NCBI RefSeq assembly: GCF_001528665.1
Contig: NZ_BBYJ01000022.1
Coordinates: forward strand, 62,001 to 126,000
Origin: Microtetraspora malaysiensis
GTDB lineage: Bacteria; Actinomycetota; Actinomycetes; Streptosporangiales; Streptosporangiaceae
Direction: 5' to 3'
Length of the DNA stretch: 64,000 nt
A program made the position numbers and the translations under genes. Below, one piece after another: positions 23,814 through 31,562 of this stretch. Positions within the stretch are counted from its first letter, which is position 1; every line of letters starts with the position of its first letter. The notes beneath the pieces were generated by a model. It made no database searches, was not told the DNA's origin, and worked only from the letters and a program-made list of their open reading frames with translations.

Positions 23814-24707
23814 TCAGGGGGTGGAGTGGTTGATCTCATTCGCGCGCTCGAATGCCTCGCGCAGCAGCCGGGCGTGGGTCCGGAGGCTGGACGCGTAGGG
23901 GCCCTCCACCTTGGGCTGGTATTCGGCTTGCAGCGCACGCAAGGTCGAGGTGAGCGAGATGGCGCGTGCGCAGGTGGCCTCCGCCACGGCGAGCTTCACC
24001 TCGATGGCGTGGGCCTGGGCGGGAGCCAGCCCATCGGTGAGATCGGGAAGGGCTGCCCGGATCTCCGGTGGCGTGGCGTAGGCGTGGCCTTTCCCGCGCA
24101 TGCACCGCGACCATGAGGACAAGGCCGCGGTGAAGCGCGCGTCCTTGGCGACCTCCCGCATGTACAGCGGCGCGATGTTGGAGGCGAGGGTGTCCAGGCG
24201 GAACCATCGCTCGCGGTTGCCGTAGAGCTCTTCGCTGCTCGACAGCTGGCACCCGCCGGGGGCGCTGTTGATCGTTCCTCCGTCGGGCAGGTGCGCGGTG
24301 AGCACTTTGACGTCGTCGCCGCCGCTCATGGCGAGGGCGTACTGGGCTTGGCGGGCCGCGGGCAGGCTGTCGCGGTAGGCGATGTTGGGGTCGTCTCGCT
24401 TTTCTTGCATGGCCTTCTGCCGATCGAGGCCCCCGTACCCGTGCTCACGCGCCCAGTCCGGATCGTCGAGGACGAAGCCGAGCCCTCGCGACGGCTCCCA
24501 CATCTTCGGCACCCAGTACCAGAAGCCGTGCTCTTGCATGCAGTCGCGGATGAGTAGGAGTTCCGCGCGTTTCAGGACCACGTAGTCGGCCTGGGTGAGC
24601 GGAGTCGGCGGCACGCTGGGGCCGGCGCCGCACCCGGTGAGCAACCCCAGGGCCAGAACATGGCCTGCGACCACCGCTGCGGCCCGCCCGCGCCCCGTGA
24701 AAAGCAT
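23814..24707 (-). CDS. Putative lipoprotein of unknown function
   Basis: 297 aa. N-terminal VVAGHVLALGLLTGCGAG is a lipoprotein signal with lipobox LTGC, so the mature protein is membrane-anchored outside the cell. The rest is helical and charged with three or four Cys (RDCMQEHGFWYWVP, SAPGGCQLSSSEELYG, SSWSRCMRGKGHAY, EATCARAISL). The spacing suggests disulfides, as in actinobacterial proteins annotated only as hypothetical. It is divergent from the STAND gene and probably co-transcribed with the I36-like gene behind it. Its promoter shares the dyad architecture found at two other secreted-protein genes nearby. Confidence 0.75.
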   Translation of the reverse strand: MLFTGRGRAAAVVAGHVLALGLLTGCGAGPSVPPTPLTQADYVVLKRAELLLIRDCMQEHGFWYWVPKMWEPSRGLGFVLDDPDWAREHGYGGLDRQKAMQEKRDDPNIAYRDSLPAARQAQYALAMSGGDDVKVLTAHLPDGGTINSAPGGCQLSSSEELYGNRERWFRLDTLASNIAPLYMREVAKDARFTAALSSWSRCMRGKGHAYATPPEIRAALPDLTDGLAPAQAHAIEVKLAVAEATCARAISLTSTLRALQAEYQPKVEGPYASSLRTHARLLREAFERANEINHSTP

Positions 24708-24763: not shown

Positions 24764-24818
24764 TCAGCTTCGGAGGCCGGCGGATTGTCTGCCACCCCGA
24801 TTCGCCACCTCAGACAAA
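24764..24818 (-). promoter_or_regulatory. Shared dyad promoter, copy 1
   Basis: Read on the minus strand: TTTGTC, 23 bp, GACAAT (dyad arms 24813-24818 and 24784-24789), 13 bp, then AAGCTGAG, about 57 bp before the lipoprotein start. The interior TGAGGTGGCGAATCGGGGT is nearly the same as in copy 2. The dyad also abuts the STAND gene's -35 on the other strand. Confidence 0.75.
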
Positions 24819-24885: not shown

Positions 24886-27800
24886 GTGGGGCGTCGCGAG
24901 CGGCCGGTGGATCCGGCGGACGGCCCGGTGGCCGCCTTCGCCGTCGAACTACGCAAGTTGCGCCAGGAGGCGGGCAGCCCGTCGTACCGGGCCATGGCGG
25001 CGCAGGTGCATTTCTCGTCCGCCACGCTGGCCGCGGCGGCCGCCGGGGACAAGCTGGCGACACTGCCGGTCACGCTCGCCTATGTCGAGGCGTGCGGCGG
25101 AGACCGCCGGGAGTGGCAGGCCCGCTGGGAGGAGGTCTGCGCCTCCGCTCTCGAGACGGCGGCCTCAGGTGCCGCCGTCCAAGCGCCGTACCGTGGGCTG
25201 GCCAGGTTCGAAACAGCCGACCAGGCGTACTTCTTCGGCCGCGGCGCACTGGTCGAACGGCTGGCCACGCTGGTGGGAGCGCACCGGTTCGTGATGGTGG
25301 TGGGACCGTCAGGCAGCGGCAAGTCCTCACTGCTGCGTGCCGGCCTGGTGCCGGCGCTGCAGCCGCGCACGGTCAGCGTCGCCACTCCCGCAGCGCATCT
25401 GGAGCAGCCGCACCCCGGTGGCGTCGAGGTGGTCGTCGTCGACCAGTTCGAGGAGACGTTCACCCTGTGCCTGGACCCCGCGGCGCGGCAGGCGTTCATC
25501 AACGCGCTCATGACCCTCGGCCACGGCGAGGATGGCACCCGGGTGGTGTTGGCCGTCCGCGCGGACTTCTTCGGCCATTGTGCGCATCATCCCGAGCTCA
25601 TCGAGGCCGTCCGGGATTCCACGATCCTGGTGGGCCCGATGAGCCCGGCGGAGTTGCGGGAGGCGATCGTCAAGCCGGCGGCCGCGGCCGGCCTGATCGT
25701 GCAGCGTGAACTGACGGCCAGACTCGTCGAGGAGGTGACCGGCCAGCCGGGCGGGCTGCCGCTGATGTCGCACGCGCTGCTGGAGACCTGGCGGCGCCGC
25801 CGCGGCAAGGCGCTGACCATGCAGGCGTACGAAGCGGCTGGAGGTATCGACGGCGCGGTCGCCCACACCGCGGAAGAGATGTACGCCGCGCTCACGCCCC
25901 CGCAACAGCAACGGTTGCGCCACCTGCTGCTGCGCATGATCACCCCGGGTGAGGCGGGCAACCAGGACACCCGCCGCCCTGTGATCCGGGCTGAGCTGGT
26001 CACCGGCCAGGACGGTGACTTCGGCCCGCTGCTGCTGGAGCGGCTGGCCGCTGCCCGGCTGATCATCCTGGACGACGACACCGCCGACCTGGCGCACGAG
26101 GCGCTGCTGACCGCCTGGCCGCGCCTGCGCGGCTGGGTGGAGGAAGACCGGGAACGCCTGCGCGTCCACCGCCGCCTCACCGAGGCGGCCACCGCCTGGC
26201 AGGATCACGCCCGCGACCCCGGCACCCTCTACCGCGGGCTCCAACTCGCCAACGCCCGCGAGCATCTCACCGAACGCCTCGATGCGCTCACCCCTGAGGA
26301 GCGGGCGTTCCTGGAGGCCAGCACAGCCGCCCACCACAGAGCGCGCCGCCGGAGCAGACTGCGCACCTTGTTCCTCTCGGTCGTGGTCACGCTCGCGCTG
26401 GTAGCGGTGTCACTGGCCTGGCAGCAGAAAACGGCCAGCAGCCGGCAGCAGCGCGAGGCGCACGCTCGCCAGATGATCGGCACTGCCGAGAGTCTGCGCC
26501 AATCCGATCCGCGCCTGGCGATGCAGCTCAGCCTGGCCGCCTGGCGCCTGGCCGACCTTCCCGAGACCCGCGCCGCCCTGCTGACCGCGAGCCGGCAGCC
26601 CCAGCAGGACACCTTCACCGACCCCGACCCCGCCTCGGCCACCATGCGCTGGCTCAGCACCGACGGCCGCTCACTCATCAGCGCCGGTGCCTCTCGAATC
26701 ACCCGCTGGGACCTGGACAGCCACCGGACGATCTCCACGGCTCCCGGCCTCGGCGGGCGGTTGCCCGACGCTGCCCTGGTCATGGGCGATGTCCGCTGGC
26801 TCCCCCTCGTGGATCGCCGGGCCATCAACTCGAAGGTGACGCTGTGGGACATGACCACCGGCCACCACGACCCAACGCCGTTGGACACCACCAACCTGGG
26901 CGTCGAGGTCACCCGCAGCGGATACCAGGTCATCGTCTACCAAGCGGACGGCTCCCGCTATCGCGTCCGCGTGTGGGACCTCGCCACTCGGCGGAAGATC
27001 CTGCAGGTGAGCACCTCTCGAAAGAAGTCCGGGCCGAACCACGGGGGAAAGGTCCGCATGCTGGGCATGGCACTCAACCAAGGGGGGACCGTCGAAACTG
27101 ACGTTCCCGACGCCACGATCAGCGCGAACAGCAAGGTCATGGCACTGTGCGTGCCCGGCGCGCCGGTCCAGCTGTGGAACCTGGACGACGGCCACAGGAT
27201 CACGGCGCCCTGGGCTCCGACGCTGTCGGCCCGCCAGTGCCGGGAAGAACGCCTATTCCTGGCCCCGGACGGACGACGACTGCTGCTGGCCGAAGAGGGC
27301 CGGGTCCGGCTGTGGCACCTGCCCGACGGCAAGGAGGCCGCCGCCCTCGTGGCGCCGGGCGTGGATGAGGTCGAATTCAGCCAGGACGGCTCCTTCCTGG
27401 CTACGGTCGGCATGGATGAGCTCCTGGTATGGCGGTTGAGCAAGACCGACGTGCCACTGTTCCGGCACCCGCTCGGCGGCGAATTCGCGTTCGACCTCAG
27501 GATCGACCCAGTTGCCGGCCGAATCCGCTACCTTTTCAGGACACTTAACGGTTCGGACTTCTCGACACTGATCACCGTCCGCACGCTTCAACTCAACGCC
27601 GTCTTCGGCAGCGACGGGGGAGACGACCTCGCCACGGGCGCGACCTTCAGCCCCGACGGCCGCCGCCTTGCCATCACATACAACAACCGAGTCGAGCTAC
27701 GCGACGGCACCAGCGGGCAGCGCCTGCCCGGCCCCCCGCCACTGCGCTGCCCGGCGACCACCCCAGGCACGACCGGATGCTCTGCGATCGCCGCCTTCCG

Positions 27801-28623
27801 GCGCGACGGCCGGGCACTGGCCTACAGCGACGTCCTTCAGGCCCCGCTGCGCAGGGCATGGGTGTGGGATCTTGACGGCCAACGCGTAAGCGCGACCTCG
27901 CCTCCTCTGAAGTGGGGAGGAGGCGGCCTAGCCTTCGCGGGCAACCGTCTGTTAGTAAGCGGAGTAACCCTCGACGAAGATGCCTCACCTCTCAGAACGA
28001 CCACCGTCTGGGATCCGACCAAGGGCCGCATCTCCGCGACCGTGCCCGTCATCGGCGGCGGCCTCGCCGTCGACCCCACCGAGCGACTGTTGGTCAGCTC
28101 ACAGGGGCACATCGCCGATCTCGCCGCAGGAGTGCCGACCCGCCGCGAGGGCAGCTTCGGTGCGGCCGGCGCGCTGGCCTTCAGCCCCGACGGACGCTTC
28201 CTCGCCGTCGGCAAGGGGGGCGGGCAGACCGCACTGTGGGACGGCAAAGTGCGACGCCACATCGGCACCCTCACGTCCACGACCTCGGCCGCGGCCGTCA
28301 CCGCCCTCGCCTTCTCCCCGGACGCGCGCATGCTCGCTGTCGGGATGACCAACGGCACGATTCAGCTGTGGGACACCGAAACACAGCAGCCCATGGGGGC
28401 ACCCATCACCGCTCCCGGCAGCATGGTCTCGGCCATGTCCCTGCACGACAACGCCCTCTACGTCGCATCCGGGCGCACCCCCTACCAGCGATTCGACCTC
28501 ACCCCAGCGGCTGCGGCCACCACCATCTGCCACCGGGCAGGCCAAGGCCTCACACCGGAGACCTGGGCCACCTACTTCCCCGGCTATCCCTACCAGCCCA
28601 CCTGCGATGGCAACGCCCGATGA
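24886..28623 (+). CDS. HTH-nSTAND NTPase-transmembrane-WD40 protein
   Basis: 1245 aa from GTG 24886, with GAAGGGG five bases upstream. Residues ~10-90 form an XRE-like helix-turn-helix region as found at the N-terminus of many actinobacterial STAND proteins (AFAVELRKLRQEAGSPSYRA). Residues ~105-440 are an nSTAND NTPase: GRGALVERL, Walker A GPSGSGKS (140-147), Walker B VVVVDQFEE (Asp186), then PMSPAELREAIVKPA and LPLMSHALLETW. One membrane helix spans ~495-512 and is followed by a helical stretch. From ~600 to the end are WD40 blades (LAFSPDGRFLAVG, LAFSPDARMLAVGMTNGTIQLWDT). N-in topology would put the propeller outside as a sensor of a ligand and the HTH/NTPase inside as effector (inference). 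Neighbouring secreted genes share a promoter dyad. Confidence 0.88.
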   Translation: MGRRERPVDPADGPVAAFAVELRKLRQEAGSPSYRAMAAQVHFSSATLAAAAAGDKLATLPVTLAYVEACGGDRREWQARWEEVCASALETAASGAAVQAPYRGLARFETADQAYFFGRGALVERLATLVGAHRFVMVVGPSGSGKSSLLRAGLVPALQPRTVSVATPAAHLEQPHPGGVEVVVVDQFEETFTLCLDPAARQAFINALMTLGHGEDGTRVVLAVRADFFGHCAHHPELIEAVRDSTILVGPMSPAELREAIVKPAAAAGLIVQRELTARLVEEVTGQPGGLPLMSHALLETWRRRRGKALTMQAYEAAGGIDGAVAHTAEEMYAALTPPQQQRLRHLLLRMITPGEAGNQDTRRPVIRAELVTGQDGDFGPLLLERLAAARLIILDDDTADLAHEALLTAWPRLRGWVEEDRERLRVHRRLTEAATAWQDHARDPGTLYRGLQLANAREHLTERLDALTPEERAFLEASTAAHHRARRRSRLRTLFLSVVVTLALVAVSLAWQQKTASSRQQREAHARQMIGTAESLRQSDPRLAMQLSLAAWRLADLPETRAALLTASRQPQQDTFTDPDPASATMRWLSTDGRSLISAGASRITRWDLDSHRTISTAPGLGGRLPDAALVMGDVRWLPLVDRRAINSKVTLWDMTTGHHDPTPLDTTNLGVEVTRSGYQVIVYQADGSRYRVRVWDLATRRKILQVSTSRKKSGPNHGGKVRMLGMALNQGGTVETDVPDATISANSKVMALCVPGAPVQLWNLDDGHRITAPWAPTLSARQCREERLFLAPDGRRLLLAEEGRVRLWHLPDGKEAAALVAPGVDEVEFSQDGSFLATVGMDELLVWRLSKTDVPLFRHPLGGEFAFDLRIDPVAGRIRYLFRTLNGSDFSTLITVRTLQLNAVFGSDGGDDLATGATFSPDGRRLAITYNNRVELRDGTSGQRLPGPPPLRCPATTPGTTGCSAIAAFRRDGRALAYSDVLQAPLRRAWVWDLDGQRVSATSPPLKWGGGGLAFAGNRLLVSGVTLDEDASPLRTTTVWDPTKGRISATVPVIGGGLAVDPTERLLVSSQGHIADLAAGVPTRREGSFGAAGALAFSPDGRFLAVGKGGGQTALWDGKVRRHIGTLTSTTSAAAVTALAFSPDARMLAVGMTNGTIQLWDTETQQPMGAPITAPGSMVSAMSLHDNALYVASGRTPYQRFDLTPAAAATTICHRAGQGLTPETWATYFPGYPYQPTCDGNAR

Positions 28624-28941: not shown

Positions 28942-29400
28942 TCAGGACGACTCATGGCAAGGAGCCTGGGACTTCTTAATCCACTCGATCGCCACCACCG
29001 TGACAGGGACCGAGATGGCTTCGTGGCCGGCGGCCACGTTGTTTTCCTCGGCCCGATGGACGCAGAGCGTCATGAACTTGCGGGTTGGCAAGGCGTAGGT
29101 GACGGCCACATGGTCGTACGTGTCCGGGAAACCATAGTTGAAGAAGGACCGAACATTTTTGTAAGGGCTGCCGTCGATGTTGGGAAAGATGTCCCAAGTC
29201 TCGCCGCGGCCGATGCCGATCTTCGTGTCTGCCGAGATCACCTCGGTGGAGTACACGCAGAAGTCCCCACGCGCACACCCGTACAGGCGGTCCGGAAGGC
29301 TGGCTGCGCTGGAGGCCCCGGCCGGGGTCGCAGTTGTGAGACCGACGAGGCCGGCGGCGGCGATGGCCACTGCTCTGGCTACGAGATGAGATTTGATCAC
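28942..29400 (-). CDS. Secreted peptidase-inhibitor I36-like protein (second copy)
   Basis: 152 aa from GTG 29400, with GGAAGGA about nine bases upstream. The signal peptide (ARAVAIAAAGLVGLTTATPA) ends at an Ala-rich site. The mature domain begins LYGCARGDFCVYSTEV and continues GETWDIFPNIDG, VRSFFNYGFPDTYDHVAVTY: the C-x4-F-C-hY pattern and Asn/Gly turns of I36 inhibitors and related crystallin-like domains. Two further Cys (LCVHRAEE, APCHES) could form a second disulfide. Extracellular; a protease-inhibitor role is from family knowledge only. Its promoter carries copy 2 of the dyad element. Confidence 0.75.
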   Translation of the reverse strand: MIKSHLVARAVAIAAAGLVGLTTATPAGASSAASLPDRLYGCARGDFCVYSTEVISADTKIGIGRGETWDIFPNIDGSPYKNVRSFFNYGFPDTYDHVAVTYALPTRKFMTLCVHRAEENNVAAGHEAISVPVTVVAIEWIKKSQAPCHESS

Positions 29401-29482
29401 GCGAGGAGTTCCTTCCGTCAGCAGCTCGACTGCAGGCACTGGAGTGGCCTTGCTGTCACCGCAGGTCAGGGGTGACGCGTCT

Positions 29483-29536
29483 TAGCTTTGGTGACTGGTC
29501 GATTGTCCGGAACCCCGATTTGCCACATCAGACAAT
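29483..29536 (-). promoter_or_regulatory. Shared dyad promoter, copy 2
   Basis: Minus strand: ATTGTC, 23 bp, GACAAT (arms 29531-29536 and 29502-29507), 13 bp, then AAGCTAAG, about 80 bp before the I36 copy-2 start. Interior similarity to copy 1 includes AATCGGGGT and TGGC. Confidence 0.75.
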
Positions 29537-30076
29537 TTTGATGCTGCACGTCGTCTCGGCCCTTACCCCTGGCTTGTCGCGTGTCCTGCCGGTTCGTCAA
29601 TCGTCGCGACCATCTCCACGGCGGCCGCCGGCTTCCGCACGGCGCCACCTCTTCGATCGCCTTTCACACCCCCATTAGCGACACCAGCCGATCCGCTTCC
29701 TCGGCCGGGGGCGAGTCTCGATGGCGCCGGCCACGACGGACCCGCGCGACGAGGACGCGTTCACCGAGATCGGCTTGGCTGACGTGACGGCCTGGTACTC
29801 GGCGAGCACGTACCCGAGAAGCTGTACGACTCGCCCGGCTGCCCCTTCTGCGGCGCGCAGGAGATCAAGGCCCAACGCTCGGGCCGTCGTGATCGGACTC
29901 GGCACACACTGCCTCGCGCGATCGCTATTCGATGGACGTCGCCGCGATCGAACGGATCTATATCAGATCTAAAGCGGATCTATAGCGGGGGTGCGCATAC
30001 TCAGTGATCGCGCCCATCCGGTCGGACGCAGCAGTCGATTCACCCAACGCGGGCAAGGGCGCCGGCAGGCCCGCCA

Positions 30077-30135
30077 CCGATTGTCCGAACTGGCGAGGGG
30101 GGCTACCAGACAATCGGCGGTCCGCCGAGACTGAG
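30077..30135 (+). promoter_or_regulatory. Shared dyad promoter, copy 3
   Basis: Plus strand: ATTGTC (30080-30085), 23 bp, GACAAT (30109-30114), 13 bp, AGACTGAG (30128-30135). The arms extend to a perfect 9-bp inverted repeat, CCGATTGTC/GACAATCGG. It faces the repeat-protein gene, whose start is about 190 bp downstream. Confidence 0.7.
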
Positions 30136-30323
30136 GACCCGCCGGCGACGTGGCGACGCTGGGGATGTCGACGCGGCCGCTGACCGGGCGGGGCTATGAG
30201 CTGCCTGTTCCTGCTCAGGCTGGAACGGGGGCACAGGCAGCGGCCCCGCGTTGTGCGCTGGATCCCGTGCCCGACCCGGGCGCGGCGGGAGATCACGCAT
30301 CAGGAGTGACGAGAGGTGACGGC

Positions 30324-30650
30324 ATGACCAAGACGACGCTCAAACTGGCCGCGATCGGGCTGCTGGCCGCAGCCGGACTCGCCCTGGCCGCCGGCCCGGC
30401 AGCCGCCAAGGACGACTTCTTCCCCAGCACGGGCGGGATCGCCCCGATGGGCGAGGAGGCTTGGCCCGGCAAGGGCGGGGTCGCCCCGATGAAGGAGGAC
30501 TTCTACCCCGGCGGCGGCACGGTCGCTCCAATGAAGGAGGACGCCTGGCCCAGTCACGGCGGGGTTGCCCCGATGAAGGAGGACTTCTACCCCGGCGGCG
30601 GCACGGTTGCCCCGATGAAGGAGGACTTCTACCCCGGCACCGGCGGGTGA
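30324..30650 (+). CDS. Small secreted protein of 14-residue tandem repeats
   Basis: 108 aa from ATG 30324 with GAGAGGTGA upstream. Residues 1-28 are a clear Sec signal peptide ending AGPAAA-K. The entire mature part is five to six repeats of KED-x-x-P-x-x-GG-x-APM, the x-x being FY, AW or FF (KEDFYPGGGTVAPM, KEDAWPSHGGVAPM). No cysteine, no other domain, mature length about 80 aa. I do not recognise the family. Regular acidic, aromatic and Met positions suggest surface display, metal (for example copper) binding, or a multi-core peptide precursor, none demonstrated. Dyad copy 3 lies upstream, linking it to the I36/lipoprotein genes. Confidence 0.8.
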   Translation: MTKTTLKLAAIGLLAAAGLALAAGPAAAKDDFFPSTGGIAPMGEEAWPGKGGVAPMKEDFYPGGGTVAPMKEDAWPSHGGVAPMKEDFYPGGGTVAPMKEDFYPGTGG

Positions 30651-31055
30651 GCTCCGGGTTGGAGTTCCGACCTGGACTTTGAGCGCGATAGCAGAAGTGC
30701 TGGCACCGCCGCTCGATATGCAGCGGCGGACCATCGCCGAGGAAACGCGTGCGCTCGATCTGGATGTCACGCTGTGCGGCAAGGAGGACCATCAGGGCGT
30801 GTTTCAGAATGAGGAAGAGTAAAGCAGCAGCGAGTCCGCCGGCCGGGGCATTAAATCTTGGTCGACTGCTGTCTCATCGAAAGCTTCATCTCATCTGCCA
30901 CCGCTCTGCACAGGCCCATTCTGGCCAGCACCGTCACGATGGAAAAGACTCCAGGCATCTGGGCAATTTCGCAAATATCCACGCAATAGCCTGCTCTTCT
31001 GCCTTCATTTCATTAAACTTATTTCGATGGTCGCACGAACACGGGAGGCGGTATT
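30651..31055. other. Gap with possible C-terminal gene fragment
   Basis: The frame ending at TAA 30820-30822 reads TLSAIAEVLAPPLDMQRRTI, EETRALDLDVTLCGKEDHQG and VFQNEEE, which looks protein-like but has no credible start; I cannot identify it. From about 30830 GC content drops noticeably and the sequence appears noncoding up to the gene at 31056. Confidence 0.35.
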
Positions 31056-31562
31056 ATGCTAAAACTCGGGGCCAAGGTCGCAGCAATTAGCATGGCGGTC
31101 CTCGCTACTCTGTCAATCGTAACTCCGGCTGCTAATGCGACTAGTAGCGGCGAGTGGACGACGTATGGCCCCTACAGCTTCGTGTTCGATCTTCAGAACA
31201 GAATGTGCATGATCTCCATCTCCGGCGGCGCCACCTATGAGGGAGCCTGCGCAGCCAGCAGCACCAGGGGTCGTTGGCACGTCCGCTACAACTCGGTCAC
31301 CCATCTGGTCGTACTCCATAACGTGGCCTATGACACCTGTCTGAACGTCGATGGTAACTTTAAAGTCACCACCAGCGGCTGCAGTAGCGTCTGGACTCAA
31401 GGGTTCAACGAGGAAAAGATCGCGAATGGCACCAGTAAACACAGTGGCGTATACATGTACCATCCACTGGCTGACGCAAGCAAGTGCCTCGTGAGGGGCT
31501 GGTATATCGGCTCCTGCAGCGATAGAGGCGCCACCTACTATCAGTACTACAATGCGCCGTAG
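31056..31562 (+). CDS. Secreted protein, unknown (possible beta-trefoil lectin-like)
   Basis: 168 aa from ATG 31056 with GGGAGG nine bases upstream. A signal peptide (VAAISMAVLATLSIVTPAAN) precedes a Cys-rich beta domain: LQNRMCMISISGG, GACAASSTRGRWHV, YDTCLNVDGNFKVTTSGC, KCLVRGWYIGSC. Repeated 'C-L....G...C' blocks and the length resemble a ricin-type beta-trefoil, but no QxW motif is evident, so this is tentative. GC content is clearly lower than that of neighbours and the codon choice differs (many A/T-ending codons), suggesting recent acquisition. A textbook terminator follows. Confidence 0.75.
   Translation: MLKLGAKVAAISMAVLATLSIVTPAANATSSGEWTTYGPYSFVFDLQNRMCMISISGGATYEGACAASSTRGRWHVRYNSVTHLVVLHNVAYDTCLNVDGNFKVTTSGCSSVWTQGFNEEKIANGTSKHSGVYMYHPLADASKCLVRGWYIGSCSDRGATYYQYYNAP

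Follow-up and report, generated by a model that had tools for sequence, protein, structure and literature searches.

The window, by which we mean the whole stretch of 64,000 nucleotides analysed from a soil actinobacterium, carries a gene for a secreted repeat peptide, the gene of a proposed regulator 1.7 kb upstream of it, two further genes for secreted or lipoprotein-like products, and predicted operator sites in front of these genes. The features are located as follows.

23814..24707, minus strand: gene whose product looks secreted or lipoprotein-like, transcribed divergently to the regulator; no Pfam family.
24785..24817, no strand assigned: predicted operator dyad between the regulator (plus) and the divergent secreted/lipoprotein-like gene (minus), 69 bp before the regulator GTG.
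24886..28623, plus strand: HTH_31 - nSTAND1 - WD40 protein of about 1245 aa, the proposed regulator, with its HTH domain at 24886-25215.
28942..29439, minus strand: gene for a small secreted protein, preceded by the predicted operator at 29503; neither Pfam nor NCBIfam has a family for it.
29503..29535, no strand assigned: predicted operator dyad preceding the secreted protein gene 28942..29439.
30081..30113, plus strand: predicted operator dyad upstream of the repeat gene, TTGTCCG-N19-CAGACAA, at a distance of 210 bp from the ATG.
30207..30226, plus strand: another conserved palindrome of the leader, GTTCCTGCTCAGGCTGGAAC, the sole copy in the home genome.
30312..30319, plus strand: Shine-Dalgarno-like AGAGGTGA preceding the ATG, conserved in close relatives.
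30324..30650, plus strand: repeat-peptide precursor gene, 108 aa, from its translation and its relatives.
30324..30407, plus strand: signal peptide MTKTTLKLAAIGLLAAAGLALAAGPAAA, kept in relatives; helix 3-26 in the AF2 model.
30408..30647, plus strand: mature region, composed of five units of 14 aa and a last one of 10 aa with a Gly-Gly end.
30408-30449, 30450-30491, 30492-30533, 30534-30575 and 30576-30617, plus strand: repeat units of 14 aa each.
30618-30647, plus strand: last repeat unit, 10 aa, Gly-Gly end.

The start, stop, reading frame and 42-bp period of the repeat gene, which is present as a single copy in the home genome of 8.8 Mb, agree with the preliminary description, and the anatomy of the signal peptide is in keeping with its claim of a secreted product. 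The cut between AAA and K (before K29) was assigned by eye from the AxA motif and, judging from these features, the peptide would be exported by the Sec route. The mature 80 residues read KDDFFPSTGGIAPM, GEEAWPGKGGVAPM, KEDFYPGGGTVAPM, KEDAWPSHGGVAPM, KEDFYPGGGTVAPM again and KEDFYPGTGG, so that the chain consists, as had been reported, almost wholly of 14-residue repeats. Identities at a spacing of 14 residues amount to 40 of 66; 20,000 shuffles averaged 6.2 and never exceeded 17. Tandem Repeats Finder scores the array at 201 for a period of 42 and at 285 for a period of 84, the longer period scoring higher because two unit variants, K..YP and G..WP, alternate in part. In the AF2 model of the precursor only the signal helix is formed and the remainder has a pLDDT of about 42 (mean 45.8), which, with three input sequences, is weak evidence of disorder. 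The mature peptide is a Cys-free, acidic and probably intrinsically disordered chain.

Neither Pfam, NCBIfam, PHROGs nor PADLOC models match the peptide, which bears out the earlier statement that no family is recognised. Past the last Gly-Gly of the window peptide neither a sorting signal nor a membrane anchor follows, and an LPXTG-like motif with hydrophobic segment and basic tail is absent, as the chain stops at GG after [W/Y]Pxx. The identities of sortase substrate and of RAPP arrest peptide were both rejected, since the required motifs are absent. The repeat peptide resembles the RAPP-type arrest peptides (PMC12992588) in being small and in having a secretion signal and an Ala-Pro motif, which in the latter is Ala-Pro(-Pro). 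However, it has no RAPP/RGPP motif, its linkers are I/V/F-AP-M/A/P and its C-terminus is GG, its units are in tandem, and no downstream secretion gene is found in the window.

A search of 343 Streptosporangiaceae genomes, first with a single sequence and afterwards with a profile, retrieved 15 intact relatives in nine genomes (G000, G340, G337, G345, G310 and G230, and three each in G224, G288 and G272). Nonomuraea spiralis is among the carriers (G224 is taken as the same strain). Damaged copies comprise a frameshifted one in G125 and a truncated one-unit form in G182. Altogether, the family extends to about a dozen related species. A profile search across the class, in 395 genomes, gave no credible relative; the profile matches near E=1e-4 sit in long open frames and were set aside as chance, and matches to PDB immunoglobulin light chains and tblastn matches to plasmids (Enterobacter, Mycetohabitans; 31-37% identity) were discarded as low-complexity noise.

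Members have two to seven units, their mature chains measuring 24-94 aa, with a mature pI of about 4-5.5 and a negative charge. The consensus unit is [KG][DE][DE]x[WY]PxxGG-xAP-x, with a near-invariant core of acidic-acidic-x-aromatic-Pro-x-x-Gly-Gly. Among the 59 family units, Pro6 is invariant (59/59), position 3 is D or E in 58, position 5 is aromatic in 56 (W 31, Y 23, F 2), and Gly9 and Gly10 are found in 52 and 51, respectively. The fixed positions described earlier therefore hold for the acidic, aromatic-Pro and Gly-Gly core, whereas the Lys and Met do not: position 1 is K in 29 units and G in 27, K mostly accompanying YP and G mostly WP, and position 14 is M in 16, A in 15, P in eight and V in one, with Met replaced by Ala or Pro throughout one genus (g82). 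Linker variants include IAP-K (in 13-aa units), FGPA and RVTA. The last unit ends in GG (or GSG, GTG) followed by the stop in all 15 intact members, and the first starts at the expected signal-peptide cut in nearly every one.

An extremely improbable reading would make all of this a chance open frame running untranslated across repetitive DNA. In its favour, the antisense frame 30300-30782 is likewise open, and the pooled pN/pS over the family units is about 1, a value that is uninformative, in part owing to the comparison of unit types that are paralogous. For this reason, differences by codon position at the conserved columns were used instead. At columns 3, 6, 9 and 10 these amount to 0.42 at codon position 3, compared with 0.12 at the first and 0.08 at the second position, an excess at the wobble position as expected for a selected protein, whereas columns 4, 7 and 8 differ mainly at codon positions 1-2. 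Since the antisense frame shares its wobble position, this statistic alone leaves the strand unsettled; what settles it is the signal peptide together with the ribosome site and the start and stop. The motif and these same elements are kept across genera, the relatives share signal peptide and stop position with the window gene, and their length differences are whole codons (13- or 14-aa units). The secreted repeat-peptide family is real and, as defined here, new and undescribed.

Open reading frames were compared over 16 repeat-gene loci, and no gene consistently adjoins the repeat genes. The preliminary description had noted that no modifying enzyme is adjacent, and none is consistently so at the relatives' loci either; a RiPP cluster was rejected, as no modification or transport gene recurs. 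The only recurring neighbour is the nSTAND1 gene, found near the window copy and near one N. spiralis copy. Its product in the window, whose GTG start was deduced from homologues beginning MGRRER, has a Pfam WD40 match, matches PF20703 (nSTAND1) at E=1.8e-119 and, at its N-terminus, PF13560 (HTH_31) with 29.1 bits over a cut-off of 27 (34.6 and 34.2 bits in two homologues); its PADLOC matches are weak only. As an observation apart, a gene adjoining the repeat gene (31056-31562, plus strand) encodes a small secreted protein of 168 aa that looks by eye like a ricin-type trefoil and has no Pfam match. Ricin-B-lectin-like secreted genes also flank HTH-nSTAND1 genes in L074 (4759-5250) and, by eye, in L151 (5474-6142).

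What the preliminary description missed is a predicted shared operator that would tie the repeat gene to the HTH-nSTAND1-WD40 regulator and to another secreted protein. A dyad of the form TTGTCYG-N17..21-CRGACAA, 33-35 bp in length, stands upstream of nine of the 15 repeat genes, with no recognisable copy before the other six. In group A, formed by the window copy and two N. spiralis copies, it reads TTGTC[CT]G-N19-C[AG]GACAA and lies 204-210 bp before the ATG, and in group B (G272, G288) a version of 34-35 bp, with a single mismatch in one copy, lies 72-81 bp before it. Two group A copies (L007, L049) are without the dyad and retain the rest of the leader, with transposase-like genes nearby by eye. 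In the 8.8 Mb of the home genome there are three dyad sites, all inside 5.4 kb of the window, and one match to a reversed-pattern control; with a slightly different search pattern, the window gives five strand-wise matches and shuffled windows an average of 0.16. A tandem 11-bp repeat, CGGATCTATAG, is also present in 3.3 copies at 29953-29988, about 90 bp upstream of the operator of the repeat gene.

Across the family, 80 of the 343 genomes match the dyad, most of them with one or two sites. Three or more sites occur in six genomes only (G000, G179, G182, G224, G272, G288), four of which hold intact repeat genes and a fifth the truncated copy, compared with nine of 343 genomes overall. The dyad precedes small secreted proteins in L071, L072, L078, L147, L149 and L150, as well as the divergent gene in L075; the N. 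spiralis proteins of L071 and L072 are similar to the product of 28942..29439. It also precedes homologous regulators in L074, L075, L079, L080, L083, L145, L149 and L151. Genes similar by eye to 23814..24707 lie beside the regulator or divergent from it in L145, L149 and L152, and this family is possibly part of the sensing side. Some sites, among them L081 and that of G340, show no obvious target and might be chance matches. SARP/BTAD-type regulator genes, recognised by eye, were seen directly behind the dyad in L146, L148 and L083 (G179, G230), hinting at a cascade or at a second binder.

Since the dyad pattern was read off the repeat and regulator loci, matches there are not independent, and it is only the association with regulators in other genomes that serves as an independent test of the predicted operator. 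The HTH region of the regulator (110 aa) was found by a separate search in 159 of the 343 genomes. At least 13 dyad sites in 11 genomes lie 28-310 bp upstream of HTH-nSTAND1 starts, as counted among 46 sites chosen by the analyst with hand-entered coordinates and against the HTH genes listed. These regulator-linked sites include genomes outside the derivation of the pattern (G020, G204, G215, G228, G243). By our own arithmetic, a site placed at random in a genome of 9 Mb has a chance of the order of 1e-4 to fall in the 400 bp upstream of any of a few genes, so the association is far above expectation. For a computational result, the predicted regulatory link between the STAND-type regulator and the repeat gene is well supported. 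Control is not uniform, however, because six of the 15 genes have no operator and a second palindrome marks a different subset. This 20-bp palindrome, GTTCCnGnTCAnGCnGGAAC, precedes the start by 86-98 bp in group A and in G345. It recurs near other operator-linked secreted genes, and in L066, L069, L073 and L150 near genes for secreted proteins. The leader palindrome has no match in Rfam, and its palindromy, together with its occurrence on the upstream side of the operator in the case of some secreted genes, favours a DNA site over a known RNA; it is probably the site of another regulator.

Precedent for gene control by STAND proteins comes from the transcription factors MalT and AfsR, in which ligand-triggered assembly turns genes on (PMC4381067, PMC10936776). 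Both they and the window regulator join a STAND NTPase, a DNA-binding domain and a repeat sensor in one chain. Unlike MalT and AfsR, the window regulator consists of an N-terminal XRE-like HTH_31, an nSTAND1 NTPase and a WD40 sensor, its DNA binding is predicted, and its proposed targets are secreted peptides. STAND NTPase systems also have roles in conflict in multicellular bacteria (PMC7159879, PMC8195603), and the window regulator resembles these proteins in coupling a STAND NTPase to a repeat sensor and in its actinobacterial, patchy distribution. However, an HTH replaces the toxin-type effector, and the proposed effectors would be separate secreted proteins sharing an operator.

Whether the HTH-nSTAND1-WD40 proteins command a regulon that includes an acidic, disordered secreted repeat array, acting as a multivalent chain or as several peptides, is in our judgement an even call on the sequence evidence. 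In the mechanism proposed, the nSTAND1-WD40 part would sense a cue, upon which the regulator would assemble like other STAND transcription factors, and its HTH domain would bind TTGTCYG-N~19-CRGACAA before its own gene, the gene of a small secreted protein and the repeat gene. The repeat array would then be exported, each [DE][DE]x[WY]PxxGG unit representing a short linear motif, and would work as a multivalent ligand when whole or be cut into several near-identical peptides. The sequences themselves show the conservation of the protein family and of the dyad, and the association of the latter with genes for regulators and secreted proteins; we infer the binding of the dyad by the HTH, any activation, the secretion, the cleavage and the extracellular role. 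A short-linear-motif array working outside the cell, whole or cut, is the reading of the mature peptide that we favour.

As to the form in which it would act, a multi-core precursor, exported and cut at its xAP[MAP] linkers to give several near-identical extracellular signal peptides, can be held tentatively. The two to seven near-identical copies, the K..YP / G..WP alternation, and a first unit set at the signal-peptide cut with a last one ending in GG without linker in nearly all intact members would suit such a precursor. The home genome has 18 matches to PF08386, the C-terminal domain of tripeptidyl peptidases. Actinobacterial enzymes of this type act on Ala-Pro-Xaa substrates, which the linkers resemble, and the tripeptidyl peptidases A and B of S. 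lividans cleave Ala-Pro-Ala (PMC4022732); processing of this kind is only a lead, since such proteases have a general role and the linkers differ in their third residue. However, the linkers are not constant (IAP-K, FGPA, RVTA), no protease or receptor gene is recurrently linked to the repeat genes over the 16 loci, and neither dibasic nor other conventional processing sites are present. The fungal Kex2-processed repeat proteins, which include the alpha-factor precursors (PMC7329392), share with this family the signal peptide, the near-identical tandem short units and the several paralogues per genome. The present family is instead bacterial and its processing hypothetical, and no homology is claimed; as none of the 15 mature sequences has a dibasic pair (KR/RR/KK), it is not filed with the Kex2-processed proteins.

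The same low-complexity units, acidic, aromatic-Pro and Gly-rich and variable in copy number, might instead serve whole as a matrix or spore-coat protein, a multivalent repeat with a structural or adhesive task in the cell wall or on the aerial surface. This is unlikely, as the mature chains are very short, have no anchor, sorting signal or wall-binding domain, and are rare and patchy within Streptosporangiaceae, unlike a core structural protein. An extracellular metal binder or buffer, for which the earlier suggestion had invoked the regular KED and Met positions, is very improbable. Even though each unit has two acidic residues and some have a His, the latter is found in few units, the loci of the relatives share no recurring gene for a metal transporter or oxidase, and Met-based binding is made unlikely by the alternation of K with G and by the Ala or Pro that replaces Met in genus g82. 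A role as exported bait or decoy, such as a substrate for proteases, deployed with the co-regulated small secreted proteins against microbes or phage, would fit the conflict roles of STAND NTPases and the patchy distribution, and one protein sharing the operator is weakly similar to the inhibitor family I36 (15.9 bits, below cut-off). The change of the variable columns 4, 7 and 8 chiefly at codon positions 1-2 would also fit, but third-position GC bias likewise lowers silent change. As the peptide matches no defence model and the regulator has but weak PADLOC matches, we consider this role improbable too.

The favoured array of short linear motifs can be extended to a bacterial form of repeat-precursor peptide signalling, in which the regulator, rather than killing the cell, would act through a dedicated operator to induce small secreted proteins along with secreted multi-copy peptides of short motifs. 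In multicellular actinobacteria this output would serve as an alarm outside the cell or as a response to conflict. This extension is speculative, and we regard it as rather doubtful. If the regulatory link is true, immune-receptor-like NTPases of bacteria would control extracellular peptides besides intracellular effectors. In the literature searched, no described target was found for HTH-nSTAND1-WD40 proteins, and the literature covered, with few subscription papers among it, held no paper on this architecture or on the repeat peptide. A predicted DNA site and predicted targets are hereby provided for these proteins, whose N-terminal domain has the wide occurrence given above.

Finally, two apparently unrelated proteins of analogous build, with a signal peptide followed by short repeats, were seen in L099 (G219; ...ETDSKHWVNGGGVSTASKHWVDGGGVST...) and L107 (G320; ...AETEWGLAGGGGAITPAEIEWGFAGGG...), which suggests that secreted Trp/Gly-Gly repeat peptides form a broader class within Streptosporangiaceae.
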